Source: Prevotella sp. | Lineage (GTDB): Bacteria > Bacteroidota > Bacteroidia > Bacteroidales > Bacteroidaceae | Length of the DNA stretch: 12,446 nucleotides | Direction of reading: 5' to 3' | NCBI GenBank assembly: GCA_017623335.1 | Contig: JAGAPI010000192.1 | Span: forward strand, 1-12,446 | Shown: piece after piece, positions 6,121 through 8,649 of the stretch | Layout of the letters: the number at the start of each line of letters is the position of its first letter | Position numbering within the stretch: position 1 is the first letter of the stretch | Notes under the pieces: model-generated | The model's input: the letters and a program-made list of their open reading frames with translations, nothing else | Databases searched by the model: none | What the model was told of the DNA's origin: nothing | Translations under genes and position numbers: made by a program

Positions 6121-6432
6121 CTATAGCGTGATGCTTCCGACACCAGCCACACTTAATTTCGCATTCAGCCCCATAGCCTTGAATACACGGGCAACCGTGG
6201 ACAGTGTCAGATTCCTGCCATTCTCAATCTTCGACACCTGAGCACGCTGCACTCCTATGCGCTCCGCAAGTTCCTGCTGCGTCATATTCTGTGCTTTCCT
6301 CGCCTGCCTGATAGCCTCTCCCACAAGGAAAGAATGAAGCTCTGCCTCATACTTGTCTCTTTCTGCCGTACCGACCTTGCCGATGTGCTTATCCTTTATT
6401 TCGTCAAGGGTATAAAACGTCATATCTTCCAT
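6121..6432 (-). CDS. Xre-family antitoxin of a HigBA/RelBE-type system
   Basis: This 103-aa protein has a C-terminal Xre/Cro-type helix-turn-helix (about residues 41-90), with the core TQQELAERIG followed by VQRAQVSKIENGR. The N-terminal 40 residues are charged and probably contact the toxin. It starts 3 bases after the stop of the toxin gene, the toxin-first order typical of higBA. Besides neutralising the toxin it should repress the operon, probably at the palindrome 6818-6835. A second ATG at 6423 is an equally possible start. The family assignment is firm; the exact subfamily is not. Confidence 0.88.
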   Translation of the reverse strand: MEDMTFYTLDEIKDKHIGKVGTAERDKYEAELHSFLVGEAIRQARKAQNMTQQELAERIGVQRAQVSKIENGRNLTLSTVARVFKAMGLNAKLSVAGVGSITL

Positions 6433-6435
6433 ATC

Positions 6436-6783
6436 CTATTTTTTCTTATCAAAATAAATTCTTCTTATTGCCTCTGCCTTGGAAATCTCCTTCTGGGGTG
6501 TCTTCTGCATTTTCTTGATAAAGCCATGCGTGGCAATAACCAGAGTATCCTCATCTGTATCCCAGAACGCAAACAGCCGATATTGAATGCCCCGGTACAA
6601 AGTACGGAACTCCCAAATATCATTTGTGTCATCGAGTTTCTTGAAAAGGTCTTTGTCTATATGTCCGTTAGCAACCTTATCCACGTTGTAGATTATCTTA
6701 GCCTTCACGTCAGGGCGCAATGTGCACAGGAAAGCATCAGCCTCGCTGGACAAAATAACCTTAATTTTTCTCCTTGTTTCCAT
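6436..6783 (-). CDS. RelE/ParE-superfamily (HigB-like) toxin
   Basis: This 115-aa protein resembles the phage-derived Gp49/HigB-like branch of RelE toxins, which typically cleave mRNA at the ribosome. Recognisable features are the stretch FKKLDDTNDIWEFRTLYRG, then YRLFAFWD, then LVIATHGFIKK and the basic end KTPQKEISKAEAIRR. The frame is open to an earlier ATG at 6801. I prefer the ATG at 6783 because the -7 promoter box ends at 6803, which puts transcription initiation at or after the first ATG. The partner antitoxin follows after 3 bases. The pair sits between core genes and the accessory block, consistent with acquisition. Confidence 0.88.
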   Translation of the reverse strand: METRRKIKVILSSEADAFLCTLRPDVKAKIIYNVDKVANGHIDKDLFKKLDDTNDIWEFRTLYRGIQYRLFAFWDTDEDTLVIATHGFIKKMQKTPQKEISKAEAIRRIYFDKKK

Positions 6784-6802
6784 GAAACAGTTGTTTTGCA
6801 TG

Positions 6803-6959: not shown

Positions 6960-6990
6960 TTTGTTTTGTGCCCACTTATTTGTATCTTTG
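6960..6990 (+). promoter_or_regulatory. Promoter of the Rpn-like nuclease gene
   Basis: TTTG at 6960-6963 and TATCTTTG at 6983-6990 are 19 bp apart, matching the Bacteroidetes -33/-7 promoter. The box ends 30 bases before the ATG at 7021. Confidence 0.7.
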
Positions 6991-7020: not shown

Positions 7021-8028
7021 ATGGGACAGTTGGAAGAGCGTTACATAAGCCTGCTGACGGATTTTGGCTTCAAGAGGATTTTCGGCACACGCCCGAACAA
7101 GGATCTGCTTGTGAATTTCCTCAACTCGATGTTCAACGGCGAACAGGTGATTACCGACGTGCGCTACCTTAACAGCGAGCACGTGGGCGACGTGTTCGCC
7201 GAGCGCCGCGCCATCTTCGACGTGTACTGCGAGAACGAGCGCGGCGAGAAGTTCATAGTGGAGATGCAGAACGCATACCAAAAGCACTTCAAGGACCGCT
7301 CGCTGTACTACGCCACGTTCCCCATACGCGAGCAGGCTCCCAAGGATGCCAGCTGGAACTTCCAGCTCAACCACGTCTACATCGTGGCGCTGCTCAACTT
7401 CGACCTCAAGGAGCCGGCGTTCAACCCGAACGACATCACCCACGACGTGGGACTGATGGACAAGAAGACGCTCAGGGTGTTCAACGACAAGCTGTCGTTC
7501 AAGTACGTGGAGATAGCGAAATTCGACAAGACGGAGGCGGAGCTTGTCACGCTCTACGACAAGTGGCTGTTTGCGCTCAAGAACATATCGTATCTCGACA
7601 AGCGTCCCGACTCGTTCCGTGAGCGCGTCTTCAGCAAGCTGTTCGACGAGGCGGAGATTGCAAGGTTCAATCCTCAGGAGCTGCACGAGTACGAGGACAG
7701 CCTAAAGGCATACCGCGACATAAAGAACTCCATCGACACGGCTCTGGAGCTGGGACGTGAGCAGGGACTTGCCGAGGGCATCGAGCAGGGGCGTGCCGAG
7801 GGAAGAGCCGAAGGAAGAGCGGAAGGACGTGCGGAAGGACGTGCGGAAGGACGTGCCGAGGGAAGAGCGGAAGGACGTGCCGAGGGAAGAGCGGAAGGAC
7901 GTGCCGAGGGCATCGAGCAGGGGCGTGCACAAATAGTTCTCTCCATGCTCGCCAAAGGCTTGGACATCACTGCGGTGTCAGAACTTACGGGATTGTCGGT
8001 GGAGGATATACGCACATTGCAGAAATAA
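7021..8028 (+). CDS. Rpn/PDDEXK_2-family PD-(D/E)XK nuclease with RAEG repeat tail
   Basis: This 335-aa protein belongs to the Rpn (recombination-promoting nuclease) / PD-(D/E)XK nuclease-family transposase group. The N-terminal motif TDFGFKRIFG (13-22) is diagnostic, and the nuclease core is visible as D67 (FDVYC) and E81-x-Q83 (FIVEMQ). A helical linker follows. The C-terminal domain begins near residue 229 (AYRDIKNSIDTALELG) and contains IEQG, then ten consecutive RAEG units encoded at 7792-7911, IEQG again, and the end MLAKGLDITAVSELTGLSVEDIRTLQK. E. coli Rpn proteins are toxic nucleases with anti-phage activity, restrained by a small C-terminal product. In this gene I find no in-frame ATG, GTG or TTG between the GTG at 7507 and the ATG in SMLAKG (about 7945), so an internal start ahead of the tail domain is not evident. 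The adjacent small ORF may supply that product. Confidence 0.9.
   Translation: MGQLEERYISLLTDFGFKRIFGTRPNKDLLVNFLNSMFNGEQVITDVRYLNSEHVGDVFAERRAIFDVYCENERGEKFIVEMQNAYQKHFKDRSLYYATFPIREQAPKDASWNFQLNHVYIVALLNFDLKEPAFNPNDITHDVGLMDKKTLRVFNDKLSFKYVEIAKFDKTEAELVTLYDKWLFALKNISYLDKRPDSFRERVFSKLFDEAEIARFNPQELHEYEDSLKAYRDIKNSIDTALELGREQGLAEGIEQGRAEGRAEGRAEGRAEGRAEGRAEGRAEGRAEGRAEGRAEGIEQGRAQIVLSMLAKGLDITAVSELTGLSVEDIRTLQK
7792..7911 (+). repeat. 12-bp coding minisatellite (ten RAEG units)
   Basis: Ten in-frame 12-bp units encode Arg-Ala-Glu-Gly. They differ only by synonymous changes (cgt/aga, gcc/gcg, gag/gaa), often in alternating order, which suggests expansion by slippage or unequal exchange of larger blocks. 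Both sides are bordered by codons for IEQG. The downstream copy of the tail has only two units. Confidence 0.95.
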
Positions 8029-8031
8029 TAA

Positions 8032-8277
8032 ATGATAAAAGACATGGAGCAGGCATACCGCGACATAAAAAACTCCATCGACACGGCTCTGGAGCTCGGG
8101 CGTGAGCAGGGGCTTGCCGAGGGCATCGAGCAGGGAAGAGCCGAAGGGCGTGCCGAAGGCATCGAGCAAGGGCGTGCACAAATAGTTCTCTCCATGCTCG
8201 CAAAAGGCTTGGACATCGCTACGGTGTCAGAGCTTACGGGATTGTCGGTGGAGGAAATACGCACATTGCAGAAATAA
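8032..8277 (+). CDS. Small protein duplicating the C-terminal domain of the upstream nuclease (candidate RpnS-like antitoxin)
   Basis: This 81-aa ORF begins with a unique MIKDMEQ and then repeats the tail of the nuclease: AYRDIKNSIDTALELG, IEQG, two RAEG units, IEQG, and MLAKGLDIATVSELTGLSVEEIRTLQK. At DNA level it matches 7706-8028 except for the number of 12-bp units and about nine base differences, nearly all synonymous or conservative, so the frame has been kept. It starts 3 bases after the nuclease stop in the same frame, suggesting translational coupling. By analogy with E. coli RpnS it could bind and inhibit the full-length nuclease. The other explanation is a decayed tandem paralogue of which only the 3' end remains. 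The ORF itself is clear; its expression and function are inferred. Confidence 0.7.
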   Translation: MIKDMEQAYRDIKNSIDTALELGREQGLAEGIEQGRAEGRAEGIEQGRAQIVLSMLAKGLDIATVSELTGLSVEEIRTLQK

Positions 8278-8649
8278 AAACAGAAAATAAGGATGGGGAG
8301 GATTTTGTGCTCCGTTGTGGGCGTTTTGCGACCGATGTGTCTAAAATCATGTTAAAATACTGACTATAAAGTTAAATTTCAATATTTTTTGCGCGAACTT
8401 TCGGGGGGGGAGTATGGCTCTGCCCATATTTTTTATTAACTTTGCAGAAGCTAAGCTGCACCTCGGCATAGCCTCTCAAGCAAGCTTGATGGCTCTGCTC
8501 TCGGTTTGCATTAACTTTGCAGAAGTTAAGCTGCACCTCGGCATAGCATTCAAGCAAGCTTGATGCTCTGCTCTCGGTTTGCATTAACTTTGCAGAAGAA
8601 AAAAAACTAAAATCTGTGAATAAATAAAACTAAAAGATAATAAAAAAAT
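8278..8649 (+). promoter_or_regulatory. Intergenic region with tandem promoter-bearing repeats upstream of the BspA-like gene
   Basis: This 372-base gap has no supported gene. It contains a G8 tract at 8403-8410 and a tandem direct repeat: unit one 8436-8510 (75 bases), unit two 8511-8583 (73 bases) and the first 15 bases of a third unit. Each unit begins TTAACTTTGCAGAAG, so three TAACTTTG -7 boxes occur at 8437-8444, 8512-8519 and 8585-8592. Boxes two and three have a TTG 22-23 bp upstream, within AAGCAAGCTTG. The last box lies about 57 bases before the ATG at 8650. Minus-strand ORFs over this repeat are artefacts. Confidence 0.75.

Follow-up and report, generated by a model that had tools for sequence, protein, structure and literature searches.

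A stand-alone C-terminal tail gene behind an Rpn-type nuclease gene in Prevotella, a rare but recurring arrangement with unequal repeat numbers

We analysed a 12,446-nucleotide stretch of DNA from Prevotella sp. (contig JAGAPI010000192.1), a Bacteroidales-type chromosome segment that we call the window and number from its first letter. On its plus strand lies a 335-amino-acid Rpn-type PD-(D/E)XK nuclease open reading frame (ORF; 7021-8028), followed in the same frame by an 81-amino-acid ORF (8032-8277) that encodes the C-terminal tail alone. The coordinates, the shared frame and the fresh ATG three bases beyond the nuclease were given in an initial annotation of the window and are confirmed here, as is its assignment of the nuclease to the Rpn family with four-residue repeats. 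The locus comprises the following features.

6960..6990, plus strand: match to a Bacteroidota-type promoter, TTTG-N19-TATCTTTG, upstream of the nuclease
7021..8028, plus strand: nuclease, PDDEXK_2 (PF12784, 7.5e-69; TIGR01784, 1.8e-24)
7756..7923, plus strand: repeat stretch of the nuclease tail, with 14 units of four residues (12 bp), reading REQG LAEG IEQG, ten RAEG, then IEQG
8026..8031, plus strand: TAA TAA junction, with the nuclease stop at 8026-8028, a second in-frame TAA at 8029-8031 and the ATG directly after
8032..8277, plus strand: stand-alone RpnS-like tail gene, 81 amino acids, starting MIKDMEQAYRD where the nuclease reads YEDSLKAYRD
8101..8172, plus strand: six four-residue units in the stand-alone tail, eight fewer than in the nuclease
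8173..8274, plus strand: C-terminal helix-turn-helix part of the small protein

The promoter pattern TTTG-N17-21-TANNTTTG, which we take to be the Bacteroidota consensus, occurs twice in the window, once per strand, against 0.14 expected by shuffling. The match at 6960-6990 is the only one on the plus strand and none precedes the tail gene, so the two genes are probably carried on one transcript.

The nuclease scores 87 bits against TIGR01784, for which the cut-off is 52.1, and its residues D67, E81 and Q83, taken here to be those of the PD-(D/E)XK motif, do not vary among 26 aligned sequences, the window included. The small ORF aligns to nuclease residues 225-335 by tblastn at 1e-34 and 4e-31, which rules out a chance likeness. 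An assembly artefact is also unlikely, as the same 81-amino-acid protein occurs on five contigs (the window's presumably being one of them), with 98% and 96% versions elsewhere. The second gene had been described as a copy of the nuclease's own tail; the alignment bears this out, although the copy is inexact, the part from AYRD to the end measuring 106 residues in the nuclease and 74 in the small ORF. Against TIGR01784, the small ORF aligns to the C-terminal portion at 3.2e-10, which falls short of the cut-off set for the family, and a tail profile finds RpnA (7TH0) at 3.2e-5, ranked behind another helix-turn-helix repeat entry. A structure model of the tail fits 7TH0 over 46 residues of the latter, a score that other helix-turn-helix proteins reach alike; the corresponding model of the nuclease was poor (predicted local distance difference test score 48) and was left unused. 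The locus thus has an Rpn nuclease domain, a first tail helix with four-residue repeats whose number varies, and a small protein that corresponds to the Rpn C-terminal domain, with a predicted RpnAS-like fold.

The arrangement has published counterparts in Escherichia coli. According to a preprint (PMC10327210), RpnS can be encoded inside rpn or as a separate gene; separate downstream copies are named behind rpnE (ypaA) and behind rpnC (a second rpnCS), each argued to have arisen separately from its own neighbor, and YpaA has been shown to be made. In strain MG1655, ypaA lies 12 bases behind rpnE. Like the window, rpnE-ypaA consists of a nuclease gene and then a gene for the C-terminal repeat helix and helix-turn-helix, with unequal repeat numbers, and rpnC-rpnCS shares the layout as far as the literature describes it. 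The E. coli proteins belong to PF04754 (PMC5350276), whereas the window nuclease belongs to PF12784. The intragenic RpnL/RpnS systems (RpnA, RpnB, RpnP2) resemble the window in nuclease superfamily, in the four-residue repeats of the first tail helix and in a fold like that of RpnAS in 7TH0; they differ in that the window tail is a separate cistron of unequal repeat number, known from its sequence. Among the titles and opening lines of abstracts that we searched, none concerned tandem tails in Bacteroidota, and PMC10327210 was the sole RpnS paper among those listed. The layout of a nuclease with a downstream tail is therefore already published for E. coli, and what is added here are the Bacteroidales cases, including three further loci (L072, L081 and L162).

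A search of about 5.8 billion proteins returned 11 close stand-alone tails of 57-85 amino acids, two of which (P0001 and P0004) represent the sequence from the window with two different start calls. All 11 read MEQAYRD where the nuclease has SLKAYRD, a tail-specific start, and their lengths vary by multiples of four residues, with one to seven repeat units. Among nucleases, P0121-P0123 come closest to that of the window, with three or four differences in the first 245 residues, but they carry 5, 10 and 5 units. Forty-seven regions (20 + 7 + 20) were fetched for a tail match in a shortish frame of at most 213 amino acids, and in three of them, L072, L081 and L162, a clear tail-only gene stands behind a nuclease with its own tail. 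We set aside as unclear L061 and L086, in which the downstream ORFs are longer and of other sequence, and L161 and L171, which contig ends cut. The nuclease frame is broken ahead of the tail, leaving the tail end only, in L063, L064, L159, L160, L169 and L170; the remaining regions hold contig-end matches or stand-alone tails. Every tandem tail resembles the tail of its own neighbor, and this resemblance, considered without a tree, suggests separate duplications. The exact window locus was not found conserved in named genomes. The best match of the window's trigger-factor-like protein in 399 genomes of the family of G002 was 71%. No viral contig matched the locus, and the 39 plasmid records that match the tail by tblastn all do so at less than 60% identity.

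The most elaborate case is L081 (G588). As in the window, a PDDEXK_2 nuclease is followed by tail-only genes that have their own starts and different repeat numbers; unlike the window, there are three tail genes and a truncated fourth start after them, the nuclease contains internal ATGs, and the ATG of each tail overlaps the preceding TGA as ATGA, three times consecutively. Two of the three tails carry another helix sequence. Their pairwise ratios of nonsynonymous to synonymous substitution rates (dN/dS) are 0.30, 0.42 and 0.29, values to which gene conversion could contribute. Relatives of one of these tails number 10 proteins, among them a nuclease fragment (P0251) and a cut-short sequence (P0250). 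In L162 (1897-3046), the repeat linker of a Bacteroidales nuclease is short, at 11 residues, and that of the stand-alone tail beginning one base further on has 35, making it six units longer.

Other forms of stand-alone tail were seen alongside these. In L057, L058 (6088-6462), L061 (3860-4246), L069 and L070, the first nuclease residues (MKQV..., MRQVEERY...) are joined directly to a tail, which we read as in-frame loss of the nuclease core at differing junctions. Two of these lie in Segatella copri genomes, related proteins include P0017, P0022, P0029, P0032 and P0037, and the L058 and L061 stretches also hold other nuclease frames. L047 contains two overlapping tandem Rpn nuclease ORFs (3-776 and 742-1734) with related tails of different repeat number.

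To judge from the sequences, the RpnS-like tail gene behind the Rpn nuclease recurs and is probably maintained. We propose, at a probability of roughly one half, that the small gene encodes an RpnS-like brake on the nuclease, the C-terminal domain of rpn having been duplicated into a second cistron, as a further case of the rpnE-ypaA layout. Under this proposal, the small gene would be translated by termination-reinitiation on the nuclease mRNA, and its product would fold as a long helix with a helix-turn-helix, pair with the corresponding nuclease domain and hold back cutting in the manner of RpnS. Given the unequal repeat numbers, we would expect this pairing to be looser than in the matched E. 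coli pairs, or under different regulation, and not a tight one-to-one block. Of the split Rpn toxin-antitoxin put forward in the initial annotation, what stands is the recurring RpnS-like tail gene; a matched antitoxin was not seen, the two copies differing by eight units, and the layout was known in E. coli.

The observations that weigh against an RpnS-like brake concern how widely and how intact the tail genes are preserved, and their repeat numbers. A tandem tail was found in none of 53 rank-picked regions (L088-L140), two of which end less than 500 bases from the nuclease, with a start-less 51-amino-acid frame inside the L118 nuclease left uncounted. None of 16 relatives, taken among the matches listed from at least 80 pattern matches in genome contigs, has a second tail by tblastn at 1e-5; in two of them the sequence stops 129 and 248 bases after the nuclease. 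With 3 of 47 short-frame regions against 0 of 53 and 0 of 16, tandem tails are rare but recurring. The protein collection consists solely of open frames without genomic context, so that disrupted copies of the tail would be missed. RefSeq annotates ypaA as a pseudogene in MG1655, as it does the counterparts in nine other tandem strains. A low dN/dS is seen among the L081 tails; the window pair is uninformative, with three synonymous and three nonsynonymous changes in 45 codons.

These observations bear on the alternative that the small ORF is a non-functional tandem duplicate that has lost its N-terminal part, its frame kept intact either fortuitously or through gene conversion from the tail of the nuclease. 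The rare and lineage-specific occurrence of tandem tails, the truncated fourth unit behind the L081 array, the six broken nuclease frames and the pseudogene annotation of ypaA are all in keeping with such a remnant, and rpn arrays formed through tandem duplication are published (PMC10327210). We nonetheless consider it unlikely, given that in the window, L072, L081 and L162 the second tail is preceded by a complete nuclease bearing a tail itself, that the stand-alone tails share a start of their own, that L081-type tails recur in other proteins, and that tail-to-tail dN/dS is about 0.3-0.4.

The mismatch in repeat number is the second burden on the brake proposal. Equal repeat number is seen neither in the window (14 units against 6) nor elsewhere: the nuclease and tail linkers measure 67 and 35 residues in the window, 22 and 18 in L072, 39 against 23, 35 and 15 in L081, and 11 and 35 in L162, so that none of six Bacteroidales tandem tails has an equal linker, all differences being multiples of four. 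Ten of 16 E. coli rpnE regions (L141-L156) hold both copies, with 0/1, 0/1, 3/1, 5/2, 1/4, 8/4, 1/4, 5/2, 5/1 and 5/1 units; equality is found in none of these RpnE/YpaA pairs, which make up six distinct combinations from strains that are not independent. In PMC10327210, RpnCS with a different repeat number failed to block RpnCL. This same-number rule sits badly with a simple antitoxin role of the downstream copies, because the tandem copies mismatch, unless the rule is specific to RpnC.

One way to accommodate the rule is a second specificity, in which the small protein neutralizes Rpn nucleases of another repeat number, from other or incoming alleles, and not its neighbor. The mismatch in every pair read fits this, as do the L081 tails, which differ from their nuclease and from one another in linker length and, for two, in helix. 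In addition, the nuclease fragment P0251 shares its linker sequence with the stand-alone tail P0248, and the solitary tails L057, L069 and L070 showed no nuclease frame in the stretch fetched. In G588, however, the only matches of the L081 tail P0241 at E 1e-12 are the array to which it belongs and that array's nuclease, although the genome has at least one further Rpn-type frame. Moreover, shuffling the E. coli pairs gives 1.0 matches expected and none in 22% of trials, so the absence of matches shows independence of the repeat numbers, not avoidance. We regard this explanation as improbable.

Tails also appear to have moved between the two copies. In E. coli, the YpaA-type ending lies on the nuclease itself in all six single-copy rpnE regions read (the other 6 of the 16) and on the downstream copy, with the other type on the nuclease, in all 10 tandem strains. 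Of 5371 matching records, 40 were sampled at regular intervals; 16 of these look single-copy by span and annotation, of which 6 were read. The last 34 residues of P0121, a nuclease that has three differences from the window's in the first 245 residues, are identical to those of the window's stand-alone tail and differ from those of the window nuclease at three positions. Exchange between the copies is visible in these sequences, and a nuclease fused to the downstream rpnS region is mentioned for E. coli (PMC10327210). In alignment A2, nucleases P0121-P0238 have very similar catalytic domains and quite different C-terminal helix-turn-helix sequences, which suggests exchange of modules beyond repeat number.

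Such exchange raises the possibility that the downstream copy matters mainly as DNA, as a reservoir for recombination, through which the nuclease would acquire another repeat number and C terminus at once and so be diversified against pressure from phages or partners. The endings in E. coli and P0121 and the independent variation of the two repeat numbers agree with this. Against it, the tail genes have starts of their own, are ATGA-coupled and show low dN/dS, features beyond what a silent donor would require; moreover, exchange may have run in either direction, as the single-copy arrangement could be the older state, and P0121 may or may not have a downstream tail. We think this reading rather unlikely. 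A broader and doubtful version would treat stand-alone Rpn tails as compact banks in which alternative antitoxins double as spare tails, each of another repeat-length specificity, that protect against foreign nuclease alleles and supply the next allele's tail by recombination; L081 would then be a three-tail bank and the window the two-copy form. The orphan immunity genes and tip cassettes of contact-dependent toxins offer an analogy.

Unlike the E. coli rpn genes, which contain an internal start for RpnS (PMC10327210), the window nuclease has no common start codon in that stretch: as the initial annotation had noted, and a codon scan upholds, in-frame ATG, GTG and TTG codons jump from GTG 7507 to ATG 7945 and are absent from 7510-7944. 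CTG, ATT, ATC and ATA do occur in frame there, so that rarer start codons are possible. In the stretch that starts at the position equivalent to residue 200 of the window nuclease and stops 30 residues short of the end, 19 of 58 distinct window-type nucleases lack ATG, and three (the window, L047 and L125) lack ATG, GTG and TTG alike, which makes the window unusual. The initial annotation had proposed that the antitoxin moved from a gene within a gene to a tandem cistron. This reading is weak and does not hold up as the rule, because two tandem loci, L072 (counted as L038) and L081, keep in-frame start candidates in the nuclease; L047 and L125 have no such candidate, yet no tail-only gene follows them. 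The internal ATG of the L081 nuclease stands where the L081 tails also have ATG. No start common to the whole nuclease set was seen, so relocation cannot be shown, and the 58 nucleases offered too few cases for a correlation between a tandem tail and a missing internal start, L162 having been fetched after the count.

Along the window come, in order, putative ClpX-, ClpP- and trigger-factor-like genes on the minus strand, so named from their sequences, a minus-strand Gp49-type toxin and helix-turn-helix pair, the nuclease and tail locus, and a gene with DUF285 and leucine-rich-repeat matches. The pair, divergent from the nuclease, consists of a Gp49-type (HigB-like) toxin gene (6436-6801) and then an antitoxin-like helix-turn-helix gene (6121-6432), and would form a second, type II-like toxin-antitoxin next to the nuclease. 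An intergenic repeat at 8414-8598 contains 34-nucleotide copies ending TTAACTTTGCAGAAG, spaced by 75 and 73 bases, and a 59-nucleotide pair ending AAGCTGCACCTCGGCATAGC; by eye, similar text lies behind the tandem tail of L072. PADLOC returned just a weak match to a putative invertase.

The repeat mismatch, the coupled array and the exchange of tails are the points of greatest interest here. Overlapping Rpn genes have been described as forcing toxin and antitoxin to co-evolve (PMC10327210), a link that a separate tail gene breaks. With all tandem tails read here unmatched, in Bacteroidales and in the E. coli rpnE-ypaA pairs, the same-number rule and the role of the downstream copy cannot both be simple. 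Exchange from neighbor to neighbor would provide a route for fast change of Rpn tails.
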